A DNA stretch of 64,000 nucleotides from Okibacterium fritillariae (GTDB taxonomy: Bacteria; Actinomycetota; Actinomycetes; Actinomycetales; Microbacteriaceae), in assembly GCF_900167575.1 (NCBI RefSeq), contig NZ_FUZP01000003.1, forward strand, positions 372,001 through 436,000, in the 5' to 3' direction. The notes beneath the pieces were generated by a model that saw only the letters and a list, made by a program, of their open reading frames with translations, did no database searches and was not told the origin of the DNA. Position 1 is the stretch's first letter, and every line of letters begins with the position of its first letter. Shown in pieces: positions 5,450 to 29,768 of the stretch. The translations under genes and the position numbers were made by a program.

Positions 5450-7324
5450 TTACTTCTTCTCGTTCTTGTCGTCCTCGTCGTCGACCACTTCGGCGTCAAC
5501 GACGTCTTCGTCAGAGGAGGTCTCCTGCTCGGTGGGCGCCGACTCGTCGGCGGCCGGAGCGGACTCGTCGGCCTGGGCCTGCGCGTAGATGGCTTCGCCG
5601 AGCTTGACCTGCGACTCGTTGAGCTTGTCGTAGGCGGTCTTCACGGCATCTTCATCGTCGCCGGCGAGGGCGGACTTGAGCGCGTCGACATCACCCTGCA
5701 CGTCGTTCTTGACGTCGGCGGGGAGCTTGTCTTCGTTCTCCTTGATGAGCTTGTCGATCGAGTAGGCGAGCTGCTCGGCCGTGTTGCGCGTCTCGGCCTG
5801 CTCGCGGCGCTTCTTGTCTTCGGCCGCGTTCTCTTCGCCTTCGCGAACCATGCGCTCGATGTCTTCCTTCGCGAGCGACGAGCCGCCCGTGATGGTCATC
5901 GACTGCTCCTTGCCGGTGCCCTTGTCCTTGGCGGACACGTGCACGATGCCGTTGGCGTCGATGTCGAACGTGACCTCGACCTGCGGAACGCCGCGGGGCG
6001 CCGGAGCGATACCCGTGAGCTCGAAGGTGCCGAGGTTCTTGTTGTCGCGCGTGAACTCGCGCTCACCCTGGAAGACCTGGATGGCTACGGACGGCTGGTT
6101 GTCGTCGGCCGTCGTGAAGGTCTCGCTGCGCTTGGTCGGGATGGCCGTGTTGCGCTCGATGAGCTTCGTCATGATGCCACCCTTGGTCTCGATGCCGAGG
6201 GACAGCGGGGTGACGTCGATGAGCAGAACGTCTTTGCGCTCGCCCTTCAGCACGCCGGCCTGCAGGGCGGCACCGACGGCGACGACCTCATCCGGGTTGA
6301 CACCCTTGTTGGGCTCCTGGCCGCCGGTGAGCTTCTTGACGAGCTCGGAGACGGCGGGCATGCGGGTCGATCCACCGACGAGCACGACGTGCGCGATGTC
6401 CTGGACCTTCACGCCGGCCTCTTTGATGACGTCTTCGAACGGCTTCTTGGTGCGGTCGAGCAGGTCGGAGGTCATCTGCTCGAACTGCGCACGCGTGAGC
6501 GTCTCGTCGAGGTTGGCGGGGCCGTTCTCGGTGAGCGACAGGTAGGGCAGCTGGATGCTCGTGCTGGTCGAGGAGGAGAGTTCCTTCTTGGCCTGCTCGG
6601 CGGCTTCCTTGAGGCGCTGCTTCGCGATCTTGTCGTTCGAGACGTCGACACCGGTCGACTCCTTGAAGCGCTTGATCAGGTGGTCGACGACGCGCTGGTC
6701 CCAGTCGTCTCCACCGAGGCGGTTGTCACCGGAGGTGGAGCGCACCTGGATGGTGCTGAAGTCTTCGTCCTTGCCGACTTCGAGCAGCGAGACGTCGAAT
6801 GTTCCACCACCGAGGTCGAAGACGAGGATGAGCTCGTCTTCCTTGCCCTTGTCGAGGCCGTAGGCCAGGGCGGCGGCGGTGGGCTCGTTGATGATGCGGA
6901 GCACGTTAAGGCCCGCGATCTCGCCGGCTTCCTTCGTGGCCTGACGCTCGGCGTCGTTGAAGTAGGCGGGAACCGTGATGACGGCGTCGGTGACCGTGTC
7001 ACCGAGGTACTGCTCGGCGTCGCGCTTCAGCTTGGCCAGGATGCGGGCCGAGATCTCCTGCGGCGTGTACTTCTTGTCGTCGACCGCGAAGGTCCAGTTG
7101 GTGCCCATGTGGCGCTTGACCGACGCGATGGTGCGGTCGACGTTGGTGACGGCCTGACGCTTGGCGGTCTCGCCGACGAGGGTCTCGCCATCCTTCGTGT
7201 AAGCGACGACCGAGGGGGTGGTGCGCAGACCCTCGGCGTTGGCGATGACGGTGGGTTCTCCACCTTCGAGGACGGCCACCACAGAGTTGGTGGTTCCGAG
7301 GTCGATTCCTACTGCTCGAGCCAT
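5450..7324 (-). CDS. dnaK: Hsp70 chaperone DnaK
   Basis: 624 residues starting [18 protein letters not shown]. All Hsp70 signatures are visible: the IDLGTTNS phosphate loop, [15 protein letters not shown], and [13 protein letters not shown] substrate-binding domain, helical lid and acidic tail ([12 protein letters not shown]) follow. It is the first gene of the heat-shock operon and has a strong AAGGAG ribosome site about 10 nt before ATG 7324. Two HAIR operators lie 52 to 134 bp upstream, so HspR repression is expected. Opposite-strand long open frames through this gene are codon-bias shadows. Confidence 0.97.
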
Positions 7325-10635: not shown

Positions 10636-11549
10636 CGTGCGGCTCCTTCGAGAGTGGTGGGGGAGGCGGGGGCTGAGGCCGGGCTCGTGGCCGAGGCATC
10701 CGCAAATTTGTTGGTCATCTCGCCGAGGCCGTCGATCGAGAGCTCGACCACATCGCCCGCGCGCAGGTAGGGCGTGCCCTCGATCCCGAGCGCGACACCC
10801 GCGGGCGTGCCCGTGTTGATCAGGTCGCCGGGGCGCAGCACCATGAATTGCGACAGGTACCAGACGATGTGTCGGATGCCGAAGATCATGTCCGCGGTCG
10901 AGCCATCCTGGCGCTCCACGCCGTTGACGCTCAAGCGCAGGCGGAGGTTCTGGGGGTCGCCGACCTCGTCGCGCGTGACGAGCACGGGACCGAGCGGATT
11001 GAAGGTCTCGCAGCTCTTGCCCTTGTCCCACTGGCCGCCGCGCTCGAGCTGGAACTCGCGCTCGGACACGTCGTGCGACACCACGTAGCCCGCGATCACG
11101 GCATCGGCGTCGTCGGGCGAGGCGAGGTAGCGGGCGGTCTGGCCGATGACGACGCCGAGCTCGATCTCCCAGTCGGTCTTCGTGGAATTCAGGGGGATAA
11201 GCACCTCGTCGTCTGGACCGACGATGGTCGAGGGGTCCTTCATGAAGACGACGGGTTCGGTGGGCACGGCCAGATTGGATTCGGCGGCATGGTCGGAGTA
11301 GTTCACGCCGATGCAGACGATCTTGCCGGGCCGGTCGAGCGGGGCGCCGCGCCGCTGACCCGACGCGTCGAAGGCGGGCAGCGTGCCCTCGGCGAGCGCG
11401 GCGCGCACGGCGGCGAAGTCGTCGGCCGCGTGCGTGGCGAAGAAGGCCGGGTCGATCGTCGGGGTCACCGACGACAGGTCGAAGTGGCGCCCCTCCGATT
11501 CGACGACGGGGGTTTCGCTTCCGGGCACTCCGAAACGGGCAAATCTCAT
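10632..11549 (-). CDS. Fumarylacetoacetate hydrolase family protein, predicted 2,4-diketo-3-deoxy-L-fuconate hydrolase
   Basis: 305 residues. The small N-terminal domain (MRFARFGVPG...) is followed by the FAH fold with KIVCIGVNYSDHAAE, FMKDPSTIVGPDDEV and the metal-binding acidic pair in DWEIELGVVIG. The C-terminal INTGTPAGVALG loop is intact. In the oxidative L-fucose route this enzyme splits the diketo acid to pyruvate and L-lactate. It is coupled to both neighbours by ATGA overlaps (11546-11549 and 10632-10635). Alternatives in the same family act on other acylpyruvates; the cluster argues for the sugar-acid substrate. Confidence 0.87.
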   Translation of the reverse strand: MRFARFGVPGSETPVVESEGRHFDLSSVTPTIDPAFFATHAADDFAAVRAALAEGTLPAFDASGQRRGAPLDRPGKIVCIGVNYSDHAAESNLAVPTEPVVFMKDPSTIVGPDDEVLIPLNSTKTDWEIELGVVIGQTARYLASPDDADAVIAGYVVSHDVSEREFQLERGGQWDKGKSCETFNPLGPVLVTRDEVGDPQNLRLRLSVNGVERQDGSTADMIFGIRHIVWYLSQFMVLRPGDLINTGTPAGVALGIEGTPYLRAGDVVELSIDGLGEMTNKFADASATSPASAPASPTTLEGAAR

Positions 11550-12808
11550 ATTCTTTCTTCCTCTTCTACGTTCGGGTCTGCGGTCGCTTCGGCCCCGCTC
11601 TGCGGCTCCCCCGCGAGATACGGCGGGCGAATTCCGCCCGCGGCCGACGACTCGTACGCCGCCTCGACGATGGCCATGGTGTCGAACACGTCGTCGACGC
11701 TCGTGGGCAGCTCGGAGACATCGCCGCCGGCGAAACGCTGCACGGCGCCCATCGAGCCGATGAAGGCATCCGGAAACCAACTGCCCTCGAACGGGATCGG
11801 CTGCCAACCCGCGGCGTGATCGTCGTCGTACTGCACCTCGAGGCGGTCCTCGCCGCCCGTCGGGTAGTCGAGCAGCAGGCCCATCTGCGCACGGATGGCC
11901 CCGCGGGTGCCCTCCCACTTGATGTAGCTCTCCTCGTATTTCTCGCCGTAGTCGTGGTCGTGGTTGGTCGAGATGACCACGCGGATCTGCCGGCCGGGGT
12001 AGTACAGGATGATGTCGCTGCGCGAGTTGGCGTGCGCCTTGGCGGGATGCTTCACCGTCACCGCCGCGACCGACGCGGGGTTGCCGAGGAACGACCGCAC
12101 GAGGTCGATGTAGTGCACGCTATGCATGTTGATCTCAAGTCGGTCGAGCGTGAGCACGTGCGGGAACATCTGCCACGGCGTGTTCACCTGCACGCGGATC
12201 TCGAGGTCGTAGAGCTCGCCGATGTCGCCGCGCGCGATGCGTTCGCGGGCCGCCGCCACATAGGGCGCGAACCGCAGCTGCGTGTTGACCGCCGCGACCA
12301 GGTTCTTGCGGCGGCACAGCTCCAGAATGGCGCGCCCGTCGGCCAGGTGGTTGCCGAGCGGCTTCTGAATGAGCACGGGCGCGCCGTCGGGCAGCTGCTC
12401 GAGCACCTCGAGATACTGCTCGGGCATGAGGGCGATGTCATAGACCGCATCGGATGGCGCGGCCGCCACGGCCTCGGCCACCGACCCGAACACGCGCTCC
12501 ACGCCGAACTCCGCGGCCAACGCCTCGGCGCGTGCGACCGTGCGGTTGTAGATACCGAACACCGGGTAGCCGGCCTTGCGGTAGGCCGGAAGGTGAGCAT
12601 CCCGCACGATCCCGCCCGCACCCAGGATGACGATGGGTCGCGGGTTCGAGGGCAGAGCGAGCGTGTAAGCGGCGGCCGGGTGGAACTCGGCGCGATCGGG
12701 GGCTGGCACGAACTCGGGTGCGGAGGCGTCCCCGGGGCCCGGCACGCCCTCGGCCGAGGCGGTGGGCGCAGGCGCGGGCGCGCCGACGGGATCGGTATGT
12801 GCAGACAT
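11546..12808 (-). CDS. Gfo/Idh/MocA family oxidoreductase
   Basis: 420 residues. An extra N-terminal Ala/Pro-rich segment (about 55 residues) precedes the Rossmann core ILGAGGIVRDAHLPAY. The usual EKP motif reads QKP here (VLIQKPLGNHL), keeping the catalytic-type Lys but losing the Glu. The C-terminal domain has NMHSVHYIDLVR. These enzymes use NAD(P) on sugars, inositols or their oxidised forms. Its step in the L-fucose pathway is not obvious because the route is complete without it. It may admit a related sugar such as L-galactose or an oxidised or methylated derivative. It sits between the permease genes and the FAH gene in one operon. Confidence 0.8.
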   Translation of the reverse strand: MSAHTDPVGAPAPAPTASAEGVPGPGDASAPEFVPAPDRAEFHPAAAYTLALPSNPRPIVILGAGGIVRDAHLPAYRKAGYPVFGIYNRTVARAEALAAEFGVERVFGSVAEAVAAAPSDAVYDIALMPEQYLEVLEQLPDGAPVLIQKPLGNHLADGRAILELCRRKNLVAAVNTQLRFAPYVAAARERIARGDIGELYDLEIRVQVNTPWQMFPHVLTLDRLEINMHSVHYIDLVRSFLGNPASVAAVTVKHPAKAHANSRSDIILYYPGRQIRVVISTNHDHDYGEKYEESYIKWEGTRGAIRAQMGLLLDYPTGGEDRLEVQYDDDHAAGWQPIPFEGSWFPDAFIGSMGAVQRFAGGDVSELPTSVDDVFDTMAIVEAAYESSAAGGIRPPYLAGEPQSGAEATADPNVEEEERI

Positions 12809-12811
12809 CCG

Positions 12812-13786
12812 CTAGCCCTTCACCGCGCCGACGGTCTGGCCGCGCATCAGGAACCGCTGCGCACCGATGAACACGATGAGCAACGGGATCATGCTGAGGA
12901 ACGTGGCGAGCGCCAGCTGCGGCATGTAGAGCTTGACGTTGAGGCCGGCCGCGACCGTCGGGTTGAACAGCGGCGACGCCCCGATGAGCTCTTGCAGGCC
13001 GATCGAGATAGTCTTGTTGCCCTGCACCGAGCTGAGCAGCGCGAGCGGCAGGAAGTAGTTCGTCCAGTTGGCGACGAAGGCGAAGAACGTGACGAGCGCC
13101 ACGGCCTGCTTCGAGATGGGCGTGGCCACCTGGAAGAAGATGCCGATCTCGCTGAGCCCGTCGATGCGCGCGGCCTCGACGAGTTCCTGAGGCATCGTCG
13201 TCATGAAGTGGATGTAGGCGAGGTACACGCCGAACGGGAAGAAGCCCATGATGACGGCGACGGGCCACAGCTCGCCCGAAGCGCCGATGGCGTTGACCTC
13301 GAGGAACAGCGGGATGACGAGCACCGTGTTGGGCATGACCATGGCGAGCAGCGTGACGAAGAGCACGGTGCGGCGAAAACGGAACCGCAGACGGGCGAGC
13401 GCATAACCGGCGGGGATGGCGGCGACGACCGCGAGGATCGCTCCGATCACGGCGACGAACAGCGAGTTGCCCACCCACTGCAGGAAGAGGCCGCCCTCGC
13501 CCGGGCCGAAGCCGTTGACCTGCGACCAGCTGTAGACGACGTTGTCCCACGAGACACCGCCGAGCCCGAGGATGCCGCCCTCGCCCGCCGCGACCTCGTC
13601 CTGGTCGCGGAACGCCATGGCGACGAAGCCGATGATGGGCACGATGAAGATGGCGGCGACGAAGAGCATGGTCGCGACGCGGGCGACCCGGCCCACGCTC
13701 ATCTGGTTGCTGCCGACGGGGCCGGCGAGCGCCTCCTGGTGGGCGGTCTTGGCGCGCTTCTGCGGTTTGGCCTTGACGAGTGACAT
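12812..13786 (-). CDS. Carbohydrate ABC transporter permease (MalG type)
   Basis: 324 residues with six predicted membrane helices. The EAA loop motif reads MPQELVEAARIDGLSEIGIFFQVATPISK. The last residues ([14 protein letters not shown]) are typical of MalG-like permeases of CUT1 importers. It overlaps its MalF-type partner by one base (TAATG) and has a GAGGAG ribosome site inside that gene. No ATPase gene is present in the cluster; CUT1 systems often borrow a shared MsiK-like ATPase encoded elsewhere. L-fucose or L-fucosides are the likely cargo from context. Confidence 0.92.
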   Translation of the reverse strand: MSLVKAKPQKRAKTAHQEALAGPVGSNQMSVGRVARVATMLFVAAIFIVPIIGFVAMAFRDQDEVAAGEGGILGLGGVSWDNVVYSWSQVNGFGPGEGGLFLQWVGNSLFVAVIGAILAVVAAIPAGYALARLRFRFRRTVLFVTLLAMVMPNTVLVIPLFLEVNAIGASGELWPVAVIMGFFPFGVYLAYIHFMTTMPQELVEAARIDGLSEIGIFFQVATPISKQAVALVTFFAFVANWTNYFLPLALLSSVQGNKTISIGLQELIGASPLFNPTVAAGLNVKLYMPQLALATFLSMIPLLIVFIGAQRFLMRGQTVGAVKG

Positions 13787-14778
13787 TATTTCTCCTCCTC
13801 GCCGAACAGGCCGCTGCGGAACACGATGAGCAGGCCGATTCCGAGGGTGATGACGAGCAGGATGAGGGACATCGCCGCTGCGGCCGGGAAGTTGTAGTTC
13901 GAGAACGCGAAGGCGTAGCCGAGCTGGGTGGGGGTCGTCTGGTCGGGCAGGGCGTTCGACGACACCTGGTCGAGCAGCTGCGGTTCGAGGAACAGCTGGA
14001 ACCCGTAAGCCAGGTTCATGAGCGCCGCATACCCGATCCAGGGCCGGATGATGGGCAGCTTGACGTGCCAGGCGGTGTGCCACGCGTTGGCGCCGTCGAT
14101 CGAGGCGGCCTCGAGCACCTCATCCGGAATGCCGTTGAGGCCGCCGTTGACGACCACGATCCACGTGCCGATGCCCTGGAAGAAGAGCATGCCGGCCAGG
14201 ATGAAGGGGAGGTTGCCGTCGGTCGCGACGACGGCCTTGATGGTGTCGAGGCCCATGACGTTCCAGAGGCCGGCGATGGGCGACTGCGCGGGGTTCAGCA
14301 GGTAGACCCACAGCACGAGGTTCGCGATGCCCGCGAGCGCACCGGGGATGTAGTAGAGGAACCGCATGGTGTTGCCGAAACGGCCGGGGCTGGCGTGCAC
14401 GAGCAACGCGAGGCCCACGATGCCGAGCATCATGATGGGCAGCCAGACGATCAGAACGCTGAAGATGTTGCCGAAGGTCTGCCAGAAGCGGAAGTCGGAG
14501 AAGACCGTGACGAAGCTCGAGATGCCGCCGAAGCCGCCCTCGGGTTGCACGGGCGTGGCCGGTCGCTGCAGCGCGGTGTACACCGCATAGAAGATGGGGA
14601 TGATTCCGCCGATGAGCAGCAGCACCATGTAGGGGCTCAGCAGGGTCCAGGCCCCGCGCACCTCCCGCTGGTGCAGCTTGCGGCGACCGGCCGCGCTCTG
14701 GCGTTTGGTGCGCAGGCCGCGGCCGGGTGGCTGCGACTGGGCCTCCGCCTGGGGCGGGGCGATGGTGCCTTGGCTCAT
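13786..14778 (-). CDS. Carbohydrate ABC transporter permease (MalF type)
   Basis: 330 residues. A cytoplasmic basic N-terminus (to about 40) is followed by six helices and the EAA motif IPDEVLEAASIDGANAWHTAWHVKLPIIRPW. It forms the inner-membrane channel with the next gene. The start is ATG 14778 with GAGGAAG about 6 nt upstream; the open frame continues upstream without support. It is separated from the binding-protein gene by 152 bp containing a 16-bp hairpin, which probably lowers permease expression relative to the binding protein. Confidence 0.92.
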   Translation of the reverse strand: MSQGTIAPPQAEAQSQPPGRGLRTKRQSAAGRRKLHQREVRGAWTLLSPYMVLLLIGGIIPIFYAVYTALQRPATPVQPEGGFGGISSFVTVFSDFRFWQTFGNIFSVLIVWLPIMMLGIVGLALLVHASPGRFGNTMRFLYYIPGALAGIANLVLWVYLLNPAQSPIAGLWNVMGLDTIKAVVATDGNLPFILAGMLFFQGIGTWIVVVNGGLNGIPDEVLEAASIDGANAWHTAWHVKLPIIRPWIGYAALMNLAYGFQLFLEPQLLDQVSSNALPDQTTPTQLGYAFAFSNYNFPAAAAMSLILLVITLGIGLLIVFRSGLFGEEEK

Positions 14779-14884
14779 GACATCTTCCTCGATGTGTCGC
14801 TGGAACAGCGGGCTGGAGCAGTGGGGTGTGGGTCGTGCGGCGGTGCGGGTAGTGCGGCGGTGCGGTGATGCGGGGAGAGCCGCA

Positions 14885-14925
14885 GCGCCGAGGCATCCGG
14901 TCGGGGGAGCCGGATGCCTCGGCGC
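14885..14925 (-). terminator. Intra-operon hairpin after binding-protein gene
   Basis: 16-bp perfect stem (GCGCCGAGGCATCCGG / CCGGATGCCTCGGCGC) around a 9-nt loop, just after the binding-protein stop codon. It has no T-run and probably works as an attenuator or 3' stabilising hairpin. Confidence 0.75.
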
Positions 14926-14930
14926 GCGTC

Positions 14931-16277
14931 TTACTTCTCGGTGATCGTGTAACCGAACGTCTTCGCCTGGTTGACGAGTTCGTCGCTGAACTTCTTCCAC
15001 GCGTCGTCGAACGAGTTGCCCGAGACGAGCGACGGTGCCATGGTCTCGGTCCAGATGCCGCCCGTGTTGTAGAGCATGTAGGAGTGGTCACCCGGCACGG
15101 CCGAGGCCGCTTCCTTGAAGGCTGCGAAGGTGGTGTCGTTGTCGGCGAAGTAGTTGGCCGACTTCTGCTTCTCGATCCAGGCATCCTGCACCGGGCCGTA
15201 GCCGGGAAGACCGGTCGACAGGTCGACCTGCCAGGCCGGGTCGGTGGCGACGAACTTCATGAAGATCTTCGCGTTCTCGAGCTGCTTGCCCTTGATGTGG
15301 CTCGACATGCCCCACAGGCCGCCGCCCTCGTTGCCGGCGGAGGGCTTGGAGTCGCCGTCGAACGCGAGGGGCGCGACGGCCGACATCTCGCCCGCCGGGA
15401 TCTTCCAGGTCTGGTTGAACAGGTAGTCGCCCCACCAGAGGGCGCCGGGGCTCATGACCATGTCGGGGCCGACGGTCGCGGCATCCGCATCGAAGATGCC
15501 GAGCGTGGAGAGTGCCTTGCCGTCGTACATCGTGGCGAGGAGGTCTTGGGCCCGCGTGCACTTCTCGTCGCTGAGGTTGATGTGCACCTCGGTCTCGGAT
15601 TTACGGTCGTTGGTGGGGCAGCCGCTGGCCCACAGGTAGCGGTCGGGGGCGTAGGCGTCGCCCGTGAAGCCCGAGATCTTGCCGGGGTGCTCGGCGGCGA
15701 TCTTCACGGCCAGCTCGGAGTACTCCTCCCACGTGGTGGGGACGGTGTAGCCGTTCTCGTCGAAGAACTTCTTGTTGTACCAGAACACGTCCGGGGCGGC
15801 GTCGTTGCGCAGGCATCGGATCTTGTCGTCGAAGTTGCACATGGAGAGCACGGCGGGGTCGTAGCCCTCGATGGTGTCGGCCATGATGTCGGTGAGGTCG
15901 GCGGCGTAGTTCGACTGCGAGCTCGTGGCCCACGCGATGTCGTCGTTCGAGGGGAAGAAGATGGCGTCGGGCCAGCCCTTGCCGGCCTGGTCGAACTGCG
16001 CGAATTGCTGCTGCACGCTCTTGCCGCCGACGGTGCCGTCGATCTGGTTGACGGTGACGTCGATCTCGGGGTGCGCCTTCTTGAAGGCGTCGGCCGCGGG
16101 CACGCGGGGCGGGTCGACCCAGACGGTGATGGCGCCGCCCGAGTCGGTCTGCGCATCGGCGCCGCCGCCCGTCGATCCGCCGCCGCTGCACGCGGTGACG
16201 GCCAGCATGGTGAGGGCGACGCCGATTCCGGCAGCGCCTTTCAGAACCCGGCGGTGCCGGGGGGTCGAGGTCTTCAT
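14931..16277 (-). CDS. Sugar ABC transporter substrate-binding lipoprotein (family 1)
   Basis: 448 residues. A basic start and hydrophobic stretch end in the lipobox VTAC (Cys about 30), followed by a Gly/Ser linker. The mature domain shows a family 1 sugar-binding fold (AITVWVDPP..., FWYNKKFFDENGYTVPTTWEEY). It captures the sugar outside the membrane for the two permeases downstream. The promoter region carries two copies of a LacI-like palindrome and one copy of the putative GntR element. The predicted substrate is L-fucose or a fucose-containing saccharide; the binding specificity cannot be read from sequence. Confidence 0.92.
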   Translation of the reverse strand: MKTSTPRHRRVLKGAAGIGVALTMLAVTACSGGGSTGGGADAQTDSGGAITVWVDPPRVPAADAFKKAHPEIDVTVNQIDGTVGGKSVQQQFAQFDQAGKGWPDAIFFPSNDDIAWATSSQSNYAADLTDIMADTIEGYDPAVLSMCNFDDKIRCLRNDAAPDVFWYNKKFFDENGYTVPTTWEEYSELAVKIAAEHPGKISGFTGDAYAPDRYLWASGCPTNDRKSETEVHINLSDEKCTRAQDLLATMYDGKALSTLGIFDADAATVGPDMVMSPGALWWGDYLFNQTWKIPAGEMSAVAPLAFDGDSKPSAGNEGGGLWGMSSHIKGKQLENAKIFMKFVATDPAWQVDLSTGLPGYGPVQDAWIEKQKSANYFADNDTTFAAFKEAASAVPGDHSYMLYNTGGIWTETMAPSLVSGNSFDDAWKKFSDELVNQAKTFGYTITEK

Positions 16278-16350
16278 TGACGCTCCTTCAGTGTGAACGG
16301 GACCGCGGGCACTGCTTCGTGCGCACGGGGTGAGGGCCGATCTGTGTGCG

Positions 16351-16368
16351 TGATCAAACGTTATATCA
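16351..16368. promoter_or_regulatory. LacI-like operator, copy 1
   Basis: TGATCAAACGTTATATCA: identical over the first 12 bases to the palindrome at 29121-29138 (TGATCAAACGTTTGTTCA). It lies 74 bp before the binding-protein start codon. Confidence 0.6.
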
Positions 16369-16380
16369 GCGGGATGCGCG

Positions 16381-16398
16381 TGGTCAATCGTTTGTTCA
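16381..16398. promoter_or_regulatory. LacI-like operator, copy 2
   Basis: TGGTCAATCGTTTGTTCA matches 16 of 18 bases of the 29121-29138 palindrome. It is 30 bp (about three turns) from copy 1, so both lie on the same DNA face. Confidence 0.62.
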
Positions 16399-16437
16399 CA
16401 TCGGGTGAGGGGCGGAGATCGCGTCCTCGCTGCGAGC

Positions 16438-16452
16438 ATACATCAGATGAAT
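16438..16452. promoter_or_regulatory. Putative GntR/FCD operator, importer promoter
   Basis: ATACATC-A-GATGAAT, an interrupted palindrome with the TC-N-GA core known from FadR-type operators. Related copies occur at 17899-17913 and 21140-21154. Confidence 0.5.
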
Positions 16453-18001: not shown

Positions 18002-18814
18002 ATGACAGCACAGGCCGGCTCGGCGGCGCAAGGCGCGACAGCGGCACCGGACGGCACGGCGCAGGCCGGCCCCGCGGCGACGGGTCGCTCGCAGACCGAC
18101 GTCGTGTTGCACGGCATCAAGAAGATGATCACCGACGGCACGCTGCGGGCCGGATCGCGGCTGCCGGTCGAGAAGGATCTCGCCGCCGAGCTCGGCATCT
18201 CGCGCGGGTCGCTGCGCGAGGGCGTGCGCGCGCTCTGCATCATGGGCGTGCTCGAGACCCGCCAGGGCGACGGCACCTACGTGACCTCGCTCGACTCGAG
18301 CCTGCTGCTCGCGCCCATGAGCTTCATGGTCGACCTGCAGACGCCGGATGGCGCCGAACACCTGCAATCGGTGCGACGCGTCCTCGAATCCGAGGCCGCC
18401 GCCCGCGCCGCGCTGCACGCTCAGCCCGAAGCCCTGGCCGAGGCCGAGACCGTGCTCGCGGGCATCGAGGACATGTCGCTCGGCGACGAACCCGTCGACC
18501 ACCGCCGCGTGCTCGACGCCGACCTGGCATTCCACAGCATCATCGCGCGCGCGAGCTCGAACCCCGCGCTGGCGGCCCTCATCGAGGCGCTGTCGTCACG
18601 CACCATCCGCGGCCGCATGTGGCGGGCGATCAGCGAGCAGGGCGCCATCCGCGAGACACACCGCGAGCACCGAGCCATCCTCGCCGCCCTCGTGGCCGGA
18701 GACCCCGACCGCGCGCGCCTGGCGATGGGATCGCACCTGCTCGCGGTCGAGGACTTCATGCACACTCACCCGGCCGAGACGAGCGACGCCGCGGCCGACC
18801 TCCCCGCCCAGTAG
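18002..18814 (+). CDS. GntR family (FCD) transcriptional regulator of the sugar cluster
   Basis: 270 residues. A 30-residue Ala/Gly-rich leader precedes the GntR winged helix ([40 protein letters not shown]...GDGTYVTSL) and an FCD domain (about 110-250) with the [23 protein letters not shown] and SHLL helices that hold metal or sugar-acid ligands. It sits centrally in the L-fucose cluster and is its likely regulator. Sugar-acid intermediates are usual effectors for this group. Its 3' end overlaps the convergent dehydratase gene by 49 bp. Confidence 0.9.
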
Positions 18815-22732: not shown

Positions 22733-23740
22733 TCAGAGAGACGCCGTCGACTCCCGCTCGATGAGCTCGGGGGCCGCATCGGCGACCGTCACGTCCGAGA
22801 CGGCTCCCCCCGACATCCGGGCGAAGACGGCCTCGGCCGCACGGCGACCCAGCTCGTAGAGCGGCAGGCGCACGGTGGTGAGCGGCGGCCACGTGTTCTC
22901 GGCGGTCCAGGCGTCGTGCAGGGCGACGACCGAGACGTCGTCGGGCACTGAGATTCCCAGGGAGCGCGCCTCGGCGAGCGCCCCGATGGCCGCGTTGACG
23001 TTGGCGACGAGGATGGCGGTGGGCGCGTCATCCGTCGTCATGAGTGCGCGGAAGGCCTCGCGGCCGGCGCGCGGCTCATAGCCCAGCCGCGTGATGAGCG
23101 CCTCGTCGATGTCGACCGATGCCGCGGCCATCGCCTGGCGAAAACCGTCGGCACGCCGTTGCCCGCTGAACGATTCGGGCACACCCGTGATGAGGCCGAT
23201 GCGACGATGCCCGAGCGCCAGCAGGTGTTCGACGCCGAGGCGCGCGGCCCGTTCGTCGTCGAGCACGACCGACCCCGGATGCCCCGCCTCGACCGAGTTG
23301 ATGAGCACGACGGGCGCGCGGCCCGCCATGAGCCGGTCGACGTCGGCCGAGGTGACATCCTCGGCGAGTTGCACGAGCATGCCATCCACGCGCCCCTCGC
23401 CGATCAGGCGCTCGATCATGGCGCCGCCCGGCTGCATGTCTTCGGCGCGGCCGAGCAACACCATGTAGTCGCGCGCGATGGCCGCGTCCTCGACCCCGCG
23501 CATGAGCTCGGTGAAGATGGCGTTCGTCAGGTCGGGCACGACCAGCGCGATCACCTGCGAGCGGGACGTCTTGAGCGCACGCCCGGCGAAATTGGGCCGG
23601 TAGTCGAGGGTTTTCGCCGCCGCGTGGATGCGTTCACGGGTGTCGTCGCTCACGCGCGTGGCCGGGGCGTTCGAGAGCACGCGCGAGACCGCCGACACCG
23701 AGACTCCGGCGAGCGCCGCCACGTCACTCAGTGTTGCCAT
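22733..23740 (-). CDS. LacI family transcriptional regulator
   Basis: 335 residues: an HTH with hinge (MATLSDVAALAGVSVSAVSRVLSN...RPNFAGRALKTSRS) and a periplasmic-binding-like effector domain. The start is fixed by CAAACT 6 nt upstream (leaderless). It stands alone, with no sugar gene beside it. It is a candidate for binding the LacI-like palindromes at 16351-16398 and 29121-29138, since it is the only LacI protein between those sites and no other regulator is paired with them. That link is untested inference. Confidence 0.93.
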   Translation of the reverse strand: MATLSDVAALAGVSVSAVSRVLSNAPATRVSDDTRERIHAAAKTLDYRPNFAGRALKTSRSQVIALVVPDLTNAIFTELMRGVEDAAIARDYMVLLGRAEDMQPGGAMIERLIGEGRVDGMLVQLAEDVTSADVDRLMAGRAPVVLINSVEAGHPGSVVLDDERAARLGVEHLLALGHRRIGLITGVPESFSGQRRADGFRQAMAAASVDIDEALITRLGYEPRAGREAFRALMTTDDAPTAILVANVNAAIGALAEARSLGISVPDDVSVVALHDAWTAENTWPPLTTVRLPLYELGRRAAEAVFARMSGGAVSDVTVADAAPELIERESTASL

Positions 23741-26021: not shown

Positions 26022-26486
26022 TCACGAGGTCGCCGAGAGCGCGCGCTTGTTGCTGAGGTAGAGGTGCGTGAGCACGAGCACGGTGTCGCCCGTCTGGTTC
26101 ACGACGCTCACCTTCTCGTGCACATAGCCGAGGGTGTCGGGGCGTTTGGTGTGGTCGGTCTTCTCGGTGATCTCGGCCGTCACCGTGATGGTGTCGCCGA
26201 TGAAGACGGGGCGGATGAATCGCACCCGGTCATAGCCATAGCTCATCGCCTGCGGGTTGATGTCCCCGGCGGTCATGCCCACGGCGACCGACATGATCAG
26301 CGTTCCGTGGGCGATGCGCTGCCCGAACGGCTGCGTGGCCGTCCACTCGGCGTCCATGTGGTGGGGGAAGAAGTCTCCCGTCTGGCCGGCGTGCAGCACG
26401 ATGTCGGTCTCGGTGATCGTGCGCCCCACCGAGGTGCGCGTCTCGCCGATCTCGTAGTCCTCGAAGTAGCGGTCGACGGTATTCAT
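26022..26486 (-). CDS. MaoC-like dehydratase
   Basis: 154 residues, hot-dog fold: [24 protein letters not shown], then the hydratase site pattern [31 protein letters not shown] with the active Asp/His, and [12 protein letters not shown]. It is predicted to hydrate an enoyl-CoA (or the reverse). It is the last gene of a three-gene operon, coupled by an ATGA overlap to the SBP-like gene. With a CoA-transferase in the same unit it suggests breakdown of a particular carboxylic acid after CoA activation; the acid is unknown. Confidence 0.9.
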
Positions 26487-27784
26487 CGGGATGCCTCCAG
26501 GGGCAGGTCGGGATGTTCGGGCAGGCCGGGCTGATCGGGCCGGCTTGGCGAGGCCGCGGCGACGTCGAGCAGTTCGGCCGCGGCCTCGTTGAGGCGACGG
26601 GCGAGGGTGGCTTCCGGCATCCGACCGGCGACCGCCTCGGTGACCCACGGCGAGACCCGGTCTTGGAACTCGATATAGCCCGGTGTGCGCGGGCGCACGT
26701 AGGCGGCTTCGAGCGTGCGGCGCGTGCCGCGGAAGAAGTCGAGGGTTTCGCGGTTGAGGCGGTCGTCATCCCAGGCGGCGGCGTTGCCCGGTTGCCCGCC
26801 GCCGTCGAAGTAGACCGAGCGTTGGGCGTGGGCCGAGGCCACCCAGAACGCGTAGCGACGGGCCTCATCGGGATGCGAGGTGTGCGCCGAGACGGCAAGG
26901 CCCGCGCCGCCGAGGAGCGACCCGGCCAATGAACGATGTGCAGCAGGGTGCCCCGACCCGGCCGTGCCCTCCAAGCTCTGCCCCCCGCCGGCGCCGCTGG
27001 CGCTCGAGGAATCCGGCGCGACCGTCGGGATGTCGCCGTATTGCAAGCGGTGCGGCCGGAAGGTGACGCGCGAGTAGTTCGAGTAGCCGAACAGCAGCGG
27101 AGAATACGCCGACGGGTCGTCGGACGCCAGCATCTCGGCAACCTCGATCGGGTTCTGCCCGAGGTTCACGGCGGGCACGAGTTCGGCGAGCCGCCGCATA
27201 TCGGCGAGCGCCGCGAGCGTGTCCTCCTCGGCCAAGAAATGACCGGGCCGGGATGTCGGCGCCTCCCCGTGCCCGGTCGACGCCCGGTTGCCGGCGATCG
27301 TGATGAGGCTCGAATACGCGTCGATCGGTTTGAGGGGCCAGACGACACGGCCGTCGGCGGCCAGCTCGAGCACCTCATCCCAGGTCGTCGGCGGTGTGGC
27401 GAGCAGGTCGGGGCGGTGGGCCGAGACCTGGGCGGCGGCATCCGAGGCCAGGCCGTATTGGTGCCCGTCATGCGCATAGCTCTCGTGCGAGCGACCCACG
27501 CTCTGGCTGGCGAGCGCGGCCAGCTCGTCGTCGAACCCCGCCCCGTCGAGGCGGGCGAAGGCACCGGCCGCGGCGGCGAGCGGGATGTGCGGATGGTCGA
27601 TCACCAGCAGGTCGTAGCGTTCGGCGAGATCTTCGATGGGCGCGTCGGCGAAGGCCTGCAGCGAGCGATACTCCCAGCGCACGACGATGTCGGGGTGCAG
27701 CAGCCCGAAAGCCGTCGAGCAGGCGACCTGGCAGTCGTAGCCGCGCGGATGTTCCCACGTGATGCCGCGCAGGATGACGGTCAT
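26483..27784 (-). CDS. Solute-binding-protein-like protein without signal peptide
   Basis: 433 residues from ATG 27784. It starts directly with a binding-protein first strand ([17 protein letters not shown]) and has no hydrophobic leader or lipobox, so it should stay in the cytoplasm. The body keeps the family 1 binding-protein order: [21 protein letters not shown], a [14 protein letters not shown] region, [12 protein letters not shown] and [13 protein letters not shown]. It is sandwiched and ATGA-coupled between a class III CoA-transferase and a MaoC hydratase; no permease or ATPase is nearby. I recall proteins of this type beside CoA-transferases in other bacteria, with no established role. 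It could be a cytoplasmic ligand carrier, sensor or enzyme subunit. Confidence 0.8.
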
Positions 27785-29079
27785 CGCGCGGCCCCGGCCG
27801 GCTGCGGGGCGATGGCGCCCGGGGCTCCCTCGGAGGCGGCGGTGGCGGCAGCGGCAGCAGAAGCGGCCGGTGAAGCCTGGTTCGCCGAGTCGCTGGCCGC
27901 GCCCGCCCCGAACTCGGCGCGCACGGCGTCGTTGTGCTGTCCGAGCTTGGGGGCCGGCGTCTCGCTCGTCAGGATTCGCCCGTCGATGCGGATGGGGCTG
28001 CGCGTCGTGGTGAGCGTGAGGTCCGCGCCCGAGGCGGTGTGCGCGGCATCCCGCACCACGTTCTGCGTCATGCGCACAGCCGCGAACCCGTCGTGCTCGA
28101 CGAGCTCGTCGAGGGTCAGCACGGGCGCGCACCAGACATCCGCCCGGTCGAGGATGTCTAGCCAATGCTCGGTCGTGTGCGTCGCGAAATGGGCCGCCAG
28201 CAGGGCTTCGATCTCCTTCTGCTGCGACCACCACGCGTCGGGGTCGGTCAGGGCCACGAGCTCGTCGATGCCGAGGAGTTCCCCGATCACGGGGATCGGG
28301 TTCATGGCCAGCGCGAGGTAACCGTCGGCCGTGGGGTAGGTGCCGTAGGGCGCCGAGAGGAACGCGTGGGCCGAGTGCGCGCCGCCCCGCGTGACGGTGA
28401 CGGTCGGGTCGTTGAGCCGCGTCGACAGCAGCTCGAATTGCAGGTCGAGCATGGCCTCGAGCAGGCTCGTCTGGGCGTGGCCGCCGCGGCCCGTGCGCTC
28501 GCGGCGGAATAGCAGCGCCGTCACACCCTGCGCGATGTGGCAGCTGGTGAGGTGGTCGGCGATCGAGAGGCCCACGGGCACGGGTCCGTCGTCGGCTGAA
28601 CCGGAGAGCCACGGCAGGCCCGACACCGATTGGGCGAGCAGGTCCTGGCCGGGGCGGTCCTTCCAGGGGCCGTCGTCGCCGTAGCCGCTGGCCGAGCCAT
28701 AGACGATGCGCGGGTTGATGGCGGCGACCGAGTCGTAGTCGAGGCCGATGCGTTCCATCACGCCGGGGCGGAAGTTCTGGATGATGACGTCGGCCTGCGC
28801 TACCAGTTCTTTCACGCGCGCCAGGTCGTCGGGGTTCTTCAGGTCGGCAGTGATGCCCTCTTTGTTGCGGTTCATGGCGTGGAACGAGATCGTGTCGCCG
28901 TCGACCGTGCGACCGGCGAAGGCGAGGGTTCGTCCGATGTCGCCCCCCTTCGGCCGCTCGATCTTGATGACGCGCGCGCCCAGGTCGGCGAGGCGCATGG
29001 CGGCGACCGGCCCGGCCAAGAACTGGCTGAAGTCGAGCACGAGCACGCCCTCGAGCGGTTTGACGAAATCGTCGGACAT
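27781..29079 (-). CDS. Class III (CaiB/BaiF) CoA-transferase
   Basis: 432 residues from ATG 29079; a frame to 29139 runs through the operator and is not used. Motifs are GVLVLDFSQFLAGPVAAMRLADLGARVIKIERP, LKNPDD, IIQNFRPGVMERIGLDYD and GQDLLAQSVSGL with the catalytic Asp. The C-terminal domain (DRADVWCAPVLTLDEL) is present, followed by an Ala-rich tail of about 40 residues. It moves CoA between organic acids via an aspartyl-CoA thioester. It leads an operon with the SBP-like and MaoC genes, under an 18-bp palindromic operator. Confidence 0.92.
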   Translation of the reverse strand: MSDDFVKPLEGVLVLDFSQFLAGPVAAMRLADLGARVIKIERPKGGDIGRTLAFAGRTVDGDTISFHAMNRNKEGITADLKNPDDLARVKELVAQADVIIQNFRPGVMERIGLDYDSVAAINPRIVYGSASGYGDDGPWKDRPGQDLLAQSVSGLPWLSGSADDGPVPVGLSIADHLTSCHIAQGVTALLFRRERTGRGGHAQTSLLEAMLDLQFELLSTRLNDPTVTVTRGGAHSAHAFLSAPYGTYPTADGYLALAMNPIPVIGELLGIDELVALTDPDAWWSQQKEIEALLAAHFATHTTEHWLDILDRADVWCAPVLTLDELVEHDGFAAVRMTQNVVRDAAHTASGADLTLTTTRSPIRIDGRILTSETPAPKLGQHNDAVRAEFGAGAASDSANQASPAASAAAAATAASEGAPGAIAPQPAGAAR

Positions 29080-29120
29080 GTTCTCTCTTTTCTCGCGACG
29101 CTGCGAGCGGTGGATGGCGG

Positions 29121-29138
29121 TGATCAAACGTTTGTTCA
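29121..29138. promoter_or_regulatory. LacI-like palindromic operator of the CoA-transferase operon
   Basis: TGATCAAACGTTTGTTCA: near-perfect 18-bp palindrome with the central CG typical of LacI-family sites, 42 bp before the start codon. Close copies occur twice in the L-fucose importer promoter. Confidence 0.7.
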
Positions 29139-29308
29139 CACAGTAGCGCGCGCCCCGGCCCGGCGCAATCGGTCGCCGCCCGGGTCGCGCGGTGCCGGCC
29201 GCTCCGCCGCCAGAAGCGATGGACTTCTAAGCTGGAGTCGGGCGGGAGCCGCTCGCACTCCGGTCGCGCTCGAGACCGATCCTCGCGCGCATCCCTTCGC
29301 CCCGCACG

Positions 29309-29352
<44 letters not shown>

Positions 29353-29360
29353 AGGAAGAC

Positions 29361-29768
29361 ATGACCAGCATCGTCTCGCTCATCCATACCGATCGCCTGT
29401 CCGACGTGGCCGAATACGCCTACGCGTCGACGATTCCCGCGGATGCCCGGCTGATCTTCCTCGCGGGCTCGTGCCCGCTCGACGCCGCGGGTGCCACGGT
29501 CGCGCCCGGCGACTACGCGGCACAGGCGGGCCGGGCCTTCGAGAACCTCGTCGTCGCGCTCGAAGCGGCCGGCGCGACCCCGGCGGATGTCGTCAGCACG
29601 CGCGTGCTCGTCGCCTCGTCCCAGCAGGCCGACCTCGTGACCGCGTGGCAGGTCGTGCGCGACGCCTTCGCGCCACACCAGCCGCCGAGCACACTCATGG
29701 GCGTCACCGTTCTGGGCTACGACGACCAACTGGTCGAGATCGAGGCGACGGCGGCGGTGGCGCGCTAG
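29361..29768 (+). CDS. RidA family protein (YjgF/YER057c/UK114)
   Basis: 135 residues. RidA-type features are LIFLAGSCPLDAAGATVAPGDYAAQAGRAFENLVVALEAAGATPADVVSTRVLVAS and a final VEIEATAAVAR strand. The usual catalytic Arg sits in the STRVLV strand. RidA enzymes hydrolyse reactive enamines and imines made by PLP enzymes, but many paralogues have other substrates. ATG 29361 has GAGGAAG 4-5 nt ahead. It is separate from the divergent CoA-transferase operon and is preceded by a hexanucleotide repeat. Confidence 0.88.
   Translation: MTSIVSLIHTDRLSDVAEYAYASTIPADARLIFLAGSCPLDAAGATVAPGDYAAQAGRAFENLVVALEAAGATPADVVSTRVLVASSQQADLVTAWQVVRDAFAPHQPPSTLMGVTVLGYDDQLVEIEATAAVAR

Follow-up and report, generated by a model that had tools for sequence, protein, structure and literature searches.

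A leaderless solute-binding-fold protein paired with a class III CoA-transferase in Okibacterium fritillariae: a candidate partner in sugar-acid catabolism

A 64,000-nucleotide stretch of the Okibacterium fritillariae genome (hereafter the window) carries, on its minus strand, an operon of three genes that encode a class III CoA-transferase of the CaiB/BaiF family (CaiB), a 433-residue protein with the fold of a solute-binding protein (SBP), and a MaoC-type hydratase. We use SBP* as a label for the 433-residue protein, and L- and G-numbers for the loci and genomes compared. SBP* proteins form a defined family that is now annotated as "extracellular" or "ABC transporter" (ABC, ATP-binding cassette) solute-binding protein and that, judged by sequence, is cytosolic and metabolic. 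We are confident that SBP* and CaiB are partners and that their setting is the metabolism of sugar acids. The further reading, in which SBP* is a cytosolic, sugar-acid-binding descendant of the carbohydrate SBPs and a partner subunit of CaiB in a carnitine-type dehydration cycle, is a serious possibility that falls just short of an even chance.

The three-gene operon

27781-29079, minus strand: class III CoA-transferase (CaiB/BaiF family), P0002, 432 aa; PF02515 E 2e-98; Asp146 in PGQDLLAQ
26483-27784, minus strand: SBP*, leaderless SBP-fold protein, P0001, 433 aa; PF13416 E 5e-11, PF01547 E 1.7e-6
26022-26486, minus strand: MaoC-type hydratase, P0003, with D38-x4-H43; PF01575 E 8e-25; best solved relative 4ffu

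Both Pfam scores of SBP* exceed the cut-offs, and no NCBIfam model matched it at E values up to 1. As an earlier note on this DNA had described, the three genes are ATGA-coupled, with ATGA at both the CaiB/SBP* and the SBP*/MaoC junctions. The nearest named record for SBP* is from Leifsonia sp. ALI-44-B (91% identical over SBP*), and the window copy bears a low-complexity insert of ~25 residues (about 257-282) that is absent from 27 aligned homologues.

Absence of an export signal

Within its first 40 residues, the window SBP* reaches a highest 12-residue Kyte-Doolittle mean of 1.48. Across 60 loci, counting the window copy and near-copies (e.g., L007/L036 and L050/L057), the best hydrophobic stretch did not exceed 1.57 even when start codons as far as 80 codons upstream were allowed. 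As controls, 19 PF01547 matches from elsewhere in the genome, scored at the best of all upstream starts within the open frame, gave values of 1.84-2.72, and all had a hydrophobic N-terminus; a lipobox-like match was present in 18 of the 19, and 15 had permeases within 4 kb, where CaiB was found for none. The lowest of these controls was not reached by an SBP* leader in any of the 60 loci. Eight lipobox-pattern matches among the SBP* proteins are VVAC or MVAC following the TWxHPRG motif, with no leader before them, and the reading frame in the 60 loci begins shortly before the G[MIL]TWxHPRG motif, which has few variants (e.g., TWSDPRG in L061).

An exported SBP with a missed start was therefore ruled out, since neither the start without upstream extension nor the scan of upstream starts gave a leader in the 60 loci. 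Measured against the SBPs of ABC importers, SBP* has the fold and the Pfam score, and it lacks the export signal and, in most loci, a permease in its own operon. The earlier claim that SBP* has neither signal peptide nor lipobox thus holds at the alternative starts scanned, and the broader idea of a leaderless, cytoplasmic SBP-fold family tied to CaiB is likewise supported, the cytoplasmic location being what the sequences predict.

Fold and ligand pocket

The AlphaFold2 model of SBP*, built from 14 sequences, has a predicted local distance difference test score (pLDDT) of 84.9 and a predicted template modeling score (pTM) of 0.83. Foldseek and VIA-align rank sugar SBPs first among its structural relatives, namely MalE3, SmoF, TTMBP, and LpqY (Z about 35-36, ~360 residues [about 363], root mean square deviation ~2.8 Å). 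No extra effector domain was seen in the model, and enzymes of the MqnA/THI5 type were not among the 50 listed structural matches, which does not exclude such a likeness.

Among 58 SBP* proteins, 44 positions are at least 95% conserved, many of them polar (including T9, H12, R14, D63, H64, H66, D115, Y234, Y237, Q331, and R364). In a HMMER alignment read via motifs, Asp80, Gly334, and Arg404 of LpqY correspond to D63, G293, and R364 of SBP*, which are invariant in the 58 proteins. According to the available part of the LpqY study, trehalose is contacted by Asp80, by Arg404, and by the backbone of Gly334, and the Arg404Ala exchange abolishes binding (PMC7949145). In the model, the N-terminal motif of SBP* maps to the junction of beta1 and alpha1, a place occupied by Asn25 and Glu26 in LpqY. 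Basic residues conserved among SBP* proteins (H12, R14, H64, H66, R364, and R366; 95-100%) suggest that the ligand is anionic.

Coupling of SBP* to CaiB

Genomic neighborhoods were compared in 75 loci, comprising 72 genome stretches, the two plasmid loci L049 and L062, and the window. In 67 of the 75, CaiB is encoded on the same strand within 3 kb of SBP*, in 53 of them within 200 nt; the corresponding count for a permease on the same strand within 3 kb is 9. The neighborhood count that the earlier note had put forward as a check therefore shows CaiB, not a permease, near SBP* in most loci. The 67 pairs overlap by exactly 4 nt in 42 cases, with CaiB first in 51 and SBP* first in 16. Of the eight remaining loci, L135 is truncated by the end of its contig, the CaiB of L159 and L179 is on the opposite strand, and the other five are taken up below. 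Seventeen plasmid regions were also opened; of the 15 with a gene table (all but L049 and L062), 13 show a CoA-transferase directly beside SBP*, whereas in L059 one gene lies between the two and in L056 their distance is ~2.6 kb. A CaiB-SBP* pair is also carried by pSymB of Sinorhizobium meliloti 1021.

The equivalent of Asp146 of the window CaiB, which we take to be the catalytic Asp of class III CoA-transferases, is present in all 67 partner CaiBs, and GxDLLxQ is present in 66. In L138 (8478-10798), SBP* is followed by two tandem CaiB genes, both of the PGQDLLxQ type, recalling the two-subunit class III CoA-transferases.

Distribution and phylogeny

In 299 genomes of the host family, presumably Microbacteriaceae, SBP* was found in 47 and a CaiB with the motif PGQDLLxQ in 51, with both in 45 genomes, SBP* only in 2, the motif only in 6, and neither in 246 (Fisher value 2.9e-44, which ignores shared ancestry and keeps near-copies in). 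The 47 genomes have a match at E 2.5e-26 or better; 29 other matching genomes, the best of them at E 2.3e-7, were dropped as containing other SBPs. Because the motif was derived from the CaiBs adjacent to SBP*, the statement that SBP* implies the motif is partly circular; this does not apply to how seldom the motif occurs in genomes lacking SBP* (6/252). Of the two genomes with SBP* only, G257 has a CaiB with PGQDLILQ and G001 has a CaiB on the other strand. Among the motif-only genomes, L252 has a decayed, deleted SBP* copy near 6224, on a short contig whose cluster also includes CaiB and MaoC; this may be real decay or an assembly fault. The CaiBs of L247 stand in an unlike setting, and the motif matches of L250 and L251, where our search found no CaiB, may be due to chance.

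In other samples, 14 of 296 genomes of its own class, 6 of 289 genomes of the class of an alphaproteobacterial relative, and 145 plasmid records contained SBP*. A profile search of the phylum gave at least 3 of 346 genomes, a count that we distrust because scoring stopped at five candidates in each genome, a number that SBP-rich genomes use up; the same scoring may hide members in the family (299) and own-class (296) searches.

In a quick tree, the 67 partner CaiBs fall on one branch together with L209 and L210, which come from two exception genomes (Shimodaira-Hasegawa-like approximate likelihood ratio test, SH-aLRT, 94), against 30 comparison rows of which several have long branches and two are copies of partner CaiBs. 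Distances between SBP* proteins correlate with those of crotonase (0.90), CaiB (0.88), RhaM (0.87), FAH (0.84), Gfo (0.82), and MaoC (0.76) and less with those of the sugar permease (0.55), so SBP* tracks the enzymes rather than the permease.

Hydratases and sugar-acid context

Two operon types are seen repeatedly. In type A, SBP* is followed by MaoC, often with a lactonase-like amidohydrolase, L-rhamnose mutarotase (RhaM), an enolase-superfamily protein (MR_MLE), Gfo/Idh/MocA, and LacI. In type B, it is followed by crotonase, with an FAH-family protein and often an aldehyde dehydrogenase (ALDH) in the operon. Within 4 kb of SBP*, 32 of the 75 loci have MaoC only, 29 have crotonase only, and 14 have neither hydratase. 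Two unrelated hydratases fill one and the same place here, an indication of enoyl-CoA hydration or dehydration chemistry. Both Glu residues of crotonase are kept in 29 of 29 loci; in the best-scoring MaoC copy, the Asp is kept in 34 of 34 and the His in 27 of 34, and a copy with GDxxPHH is present in 33 of the 34 loci with a MaoC match. Nine loci (L130-L134, L164, L165, L174, and L179) contain a further MaoC paralogue whose active-site motif differs. A CoA-transferase thus stands beside a hydratase with its catalytic residues, as in a carnitine-type cycle.

Family matches in the 75 loci were to SDR (50), MR_MLE (42), LacI (41), FAH (37), amidohydrolase (35), Gfo/Idh/MocA (32), ALDH (23), and RhaM (18), with IclR (4) and FCD/GntR (23) as further regulators. 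By family membership in the loci opened, the dehydrogenase, lactonase, and 2-keto-3-deoxy-acid enzymes of a non-phosphorylating sugar pathway are clustered around SBP*. The transporters vary where SBP* is constant, with CUT1-type systems in 42/75 loci, CUT2 in 11/75, and none detected in 20/75 (the window slice used for this count excluded its own importer); non-ABC transporters near SBP* include TRAP in L059, MFS in L056, and a RhaT symporter in L138.

Two operons bear most closely on the reaction. That of L138 contains a divergent LacI, a RhaT symporter, a Gfo/Idh/MocA dehydrogenase, a lactonase-like amidohydrolase, RhaM, a DHDPS/NAL-type aldolase, SBP*, two CaiBs, and MaoC; neither an ABC gene nor another dehydratase was found in it. 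From its gene content, it reads as a complete oxidative 6-deoxysugar route in which only CaiB, SBP*, and MaoC are left for aldonate dehydration. That of L150 contains Gfo, AP_endonuc_2, SDR, DUF4432, CaiB, SBP*, crotonase, FAH, LacI, and ALDH, and no enolase- or IlvD-type dehydratase was found in it. Its FAH protein matches 9kkt ("fumarylacetoacetate hydrolase family protein") with 425 bits and the 2-keto-3-deoxy-arabinonate dehydratase 2q18 with 78 bits, and the nearest MR_MLE in this genome is ~38 kb away. In the 11 genomes checked for IlvD-type genes, these are located elsewhere. The pathway logic of L138 and L150 supports dehydration by CaiB with MaoC or crotonase. The DUF4432 protein of L150 (11429-12565), of a family elsewhere annotated as aldose 1-epimerase, has matches in 14 of the 75 loci, by position in type B operons, and may be a lactonase or an epimerase.

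A sugar cluster and shared operator-like sites in the window

The window contains a sugar cluster 5-16 kb downstream of the CaiB operon, on the same strand save for one regulator. Its genes and the LacI-family gene upstream of them are as follows.

22733-23740, minus strand: LacI-family regulator, candidate reader of the operator-like sites; PF00356/PF13377
20103-21236, minus strand: aldo/keto reductase, candidate sugar dehydrogenase; PF00248
18766-20094, minus strand: enolase-superfamily (MR_MLE) protein, sugar-acid dehydratase-like; PF13378 E 6e-64; NCBIfam best L-talarate/galactarate dehydratase, below cut-off
18002-18814, plus strand: FCD/GntR regulator; PF07729, PF00392
16533-17588, minus strand: amidohydrolase 2; its sole match in NCBIfam, L-fucono-1,5-lactonase, is below cut-off
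14931-16277, minus strand: lipobox sugar SBP of an ABC importer, an ordinary SBP separate from SBP*; PF01547 E 1.5e-13 (open frame 14931-16439)
12812-15000, minus strand: ABC sugar permease region; PF00528 for 12812-13942; two sugar permeases matched near this SBP by tblastn (42 and 73 bits)
11546-12808, minus strand: Gfo/Idh/MocA oxidoreductase; PF01408
9862-11031, minus strand: SDR dehydrogenase; PF13561
29122-29137: operator-like near-palindrome, about 43 nt upstream of the CaiB ATG
16352-16367 and 16382-16397: two copies of the operator-like sequence with 2 mismatches each, upstream of the importer SBP start at 16277

No Pfam match was obtained for the stretch 14079-15000 of the permease region. 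The earlier note had stated that no permease or ATPase is nearby, which is correct within about 10 kb and fails beyond it, as the same-strand sugar ABC operon lies ~10-13 kb downstream.

The near-palindrome GATCAAACGTTTGTTC at 29122-29137 is an exact match to GAWCAAACGTTTGWTC and is, we assume, LacI-operator-like. Its position leads us to place the CaiB start at the ATG at 29079, the residue from which several homologues align; the right edge given earlier, 29138, fits a GTG start at 29139 and was not retained. Allowing up to 3 mismatches, three operator-like sites were found in the window versus 0.23 expected, and none of 100 shuffles reached three. Allowing up to 2 mismatches, the 3.14 Mb genome has six, three of them in the window; a reversed control pattern gives one. 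In the 75 loci, 24 sites occur in 16, including 15 of 28 type A and 0 of 25 type B loci, and 100 shuffled palindromes reached at most 4 loci. In 11 of the 75 loci, window included, such a site stands shortly before CaiB, and in L119 and L126 one is found 40-50 nt before the amidohydrolase match; a LacI gene follows MaoC in several relatives. The shared operator-like sites suggest that the CaiB operon and the sugar importer probably form one regulon.

A scan for sigma-70 promoters gave no match. Between the operon and a divergent RidA-family gene (29361-29768), which adjoins it, a CACCGC tandem repeat occupies the intergenic positions 29305-29352. The RidA-family gene is kept in the near relative L113, and RidA matches occur in only 5 of the 75 loci.

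Proposed reaction and the evidence against it

In the CaiB/CaiD carnitine cycle, a CoA-transferase works with a crotonase and the CoA is handed to the next substrate; dehydration via CoA thioesters is known for carnitine. By analogy, CaiB would move CoA onto a sugar-derived acid, probably an aldonate, from which MaoC, or crotonase in type B operons, would remove the 3-hydroxyl as water to give a 2-keto-3-deoxy acyl form, and the CoA would then pass to the next substrate. SBP* would provide a polyol-acid pocket and present or hand over the acid. The earlier note had proposed an organic acid or its CoA ester as the ligand; an unspecified organic acid is less likely than a sugar acid, given that the operons lie in sugar and sugar-acid catabolic clusters and that a sugar ABC importer in the window has the same operator-like sequence. 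We infer the complex, the ligand, and the reaction as well as the location of SBP*. Dehydration of a sugar acid by CaiB with MaoC or crotonase is plausible, at somewhat under an even chance. The full proposal is more tentative, namely a CoA-dependent sugar-acid dehydratase made up of CaiB, a cytosolic subunit descended from SBPs, and either MaoC or crotonase, which together would dehydrate aldonates via CoA thioesters in oxidative deoxyhexose and pentose catabolism.

Several observations weigh against this reading, and the main one, which argues for a different substrate, is the frequency of MR_MLE, the enolase-type dehydratase family: it is matched in 42 of the 75 loci and is present in the window cluster. 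In addition, all 12 genomes checked hold MR_MLE elsewhere (~9 kb from SBP* in G111 and ~12 kb in G026), and in L118, L120, L123, and L125 the MR_MLE match is preceded at 250-281 nt by an operator-like site. The genome of L138 has MR_MLE genes on other contigs, so dehydration may run in trans. L145 and L176 were counted as lacking MR_MLE, yet one lies ~9 kb from SBP* in the genome of L145 and one at the end of L176. The module does not, therefore, simply replace MR_MLE, and a general rule to that effect was ruled out by the 42 loci.

Other points concern the partnership itself. A CaiB-SBP* fusion, sought as proof of contact, was found in 0 of 67 pairs. In five loci (L158 and L175-L178), the 3 kb around SBP* contain no CaiB on either of the strands, although two of these genomes have a CaiB of the partner clade at another place. 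In L158, a CaiB-crotonase pair lies ~10 kb from SBP*; the same-clade CaiB in the genome of L175 stands next to a crotonase and a sugar ABC importer, and that of L176 is sister to the partner clade, whereas no CaiB of the partner type was found in the genomes of L177 and L178 (G806 and G714). In L249, from a motif-only genome, CaiB and crotonase form a bare pair and SBP* is absent from the vicinity; in L248 (9509-10600) the place of SBP* between a PGQDLLxQ-type CaiB and crotonase is taken by a GH88-family protein. Distances of crotonase (0.90), RhaM (0.87), FAH (0.84), and Gfo (0.82) also correlate closely with those of SBP*, and the CaiB-crotonase correlation (0.98) is above that of CaiB with SBP*. 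In the pocket, Asn134 of LpqY corresponds to A117 of SBP* and is not kept, and Glu241 and Trp259, described as essential in the available part of PMC7949145, fall outside the aligned parts.

Alternative explanations

SBP* and CaiB could act on another acid, such that a downstream C3-C6 hydroxy or keto acid, selected by SBP*, is activated and the hydratase adds water. The MR_MLE matches in 42 loci, in four relatives behind the operator-like sequence, indicate that the first dehydration may already be covered, and the second MaoC motif in nine loci points the same way; however, the operons of L138 and L150 show no other enzyme for aldonate dehydration. We regard this explanation as unlikely, while giving it real weight.

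Because MqnA/MqnD and THI5/NMT1 are enzymes that use the SBP fold, SBP* could itself be an enzyme, e.g., an epimerase, a lactonase, or an elimination enzyme beside CaiB. The 44 conserved and often polar positions would suit a catalyst, but the top structural matches bind sugars, and SBP* keeps three of the residues that correspond to sugar contacts, which leaves this explanation improbable.

SBP-like domains also act as sensors in LacI and LysR proteins, and the tight operon coupling would suit a regulatory subunit, so SBP* could, in the cytosol, act on the CoA-transferase as a sensor, a buffer, or an allosteric regulator and handle no substrate. Against this, LacI, IclR, or FCD/GntR regulators are already present in many loci (41, 4, and 23 of 75), and the predicted structure lacks an additional effector domain; we judge such a role to be distinctly improbable. 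Lastly, that SBP* is an ordinary exported ABC SBP with a missed signal, as the Pfam label "extracellular" and the operator-like sites shared with a sugar ABC importer might suggest, is hardly credible and contradicted by sequence, since no leader appears in 60 loci even at the best upstream start, the window importer has its own lipobox SBP, and L138 and L059 use a RhaT symporter and a TRAP transporter.

Comparison with known systems

If our preferred reading of SBP* as a CoA-transferase partner is true, this would be, to our knowledge, the first case of an ABC-type sugar-binding protein as a CoA-transferase subunit, showing a path from transport receptor to enzyme subunit, and sugar acids would be dehydrated via CoA thioesters, which we have not found described for sugars. 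No description of a CaiB/SBP*/hydratase module was found in the literature searched (open-licence PMC papers), nor is it mentioned in the available parts of PMC9007349, PMC10444878, PMC6336799, PMC11199699, and PMC3870299.

The non-phosphorylating L-fucose, L-rhamnose, and pentose pathways resemble the SBP* loci in their mutarotase, dehydrogenase, lactonase, SDR/FAH or aldolase, and ALDH genes and, unlike the proposed module, use enolase- or IlvD-type dehydratases, as far as the available parts of these papers go (PMC11199699, PMC3870299, PMC6336799); the term "CoA" does not occur in the main text of the three. The part of PMC5507952 available to us describes an unidentified L-rhamnose pathway of Rhodobacteraceae, with a RhaM-bearing locus from which standard genes are missing and six genes of unclear function, as well as a Halomonas xylose operon without an identified lactonase and dehydratase. 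The rhamnose locus resembles the SBP* module in RhaM, and its genes are unnamed there, so the likeness stops short of a demonstrated identity; if the proposal is true, the module would supply candidate genes for sugar routes without a dehydratase in the published reconstruction, including this one.

Like the carbohydrate SBPs (LpqY, SmoF, MalE3, and TTMBP; PF01547/PF13416), SBP* has a complete two-lobe fold and keeps the equivalents of LpqY D80, G334, and R404; unlike them, it lacks both signal peptide and lipobox, is in most cases without a permease in its operon, is paired with a CoA-transferase, and has an N-terminal motif of its own, G[MIL]TWxHPRG. The operon shares with the CaiB/CaiD carnitine module a CoA-transferase coupled to an enoyl-CoA hydratase-type enzyme and a proposed 3-hydroxy acid substrate, and it differs in its third, SBP-fold protein, in its sugar-catabolic context, and in that MaoC may replace crotonase. 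A precedent for a hetero-complex is the benzylsuccinate CoA-transferase BbsEF (9fn0), in which two different CaiB-type chains are present in one entry, recalling the tandem CaiBs of L138; its second subunit is another CaiB, in contrast to the SBP-fold partner in the operon described here.

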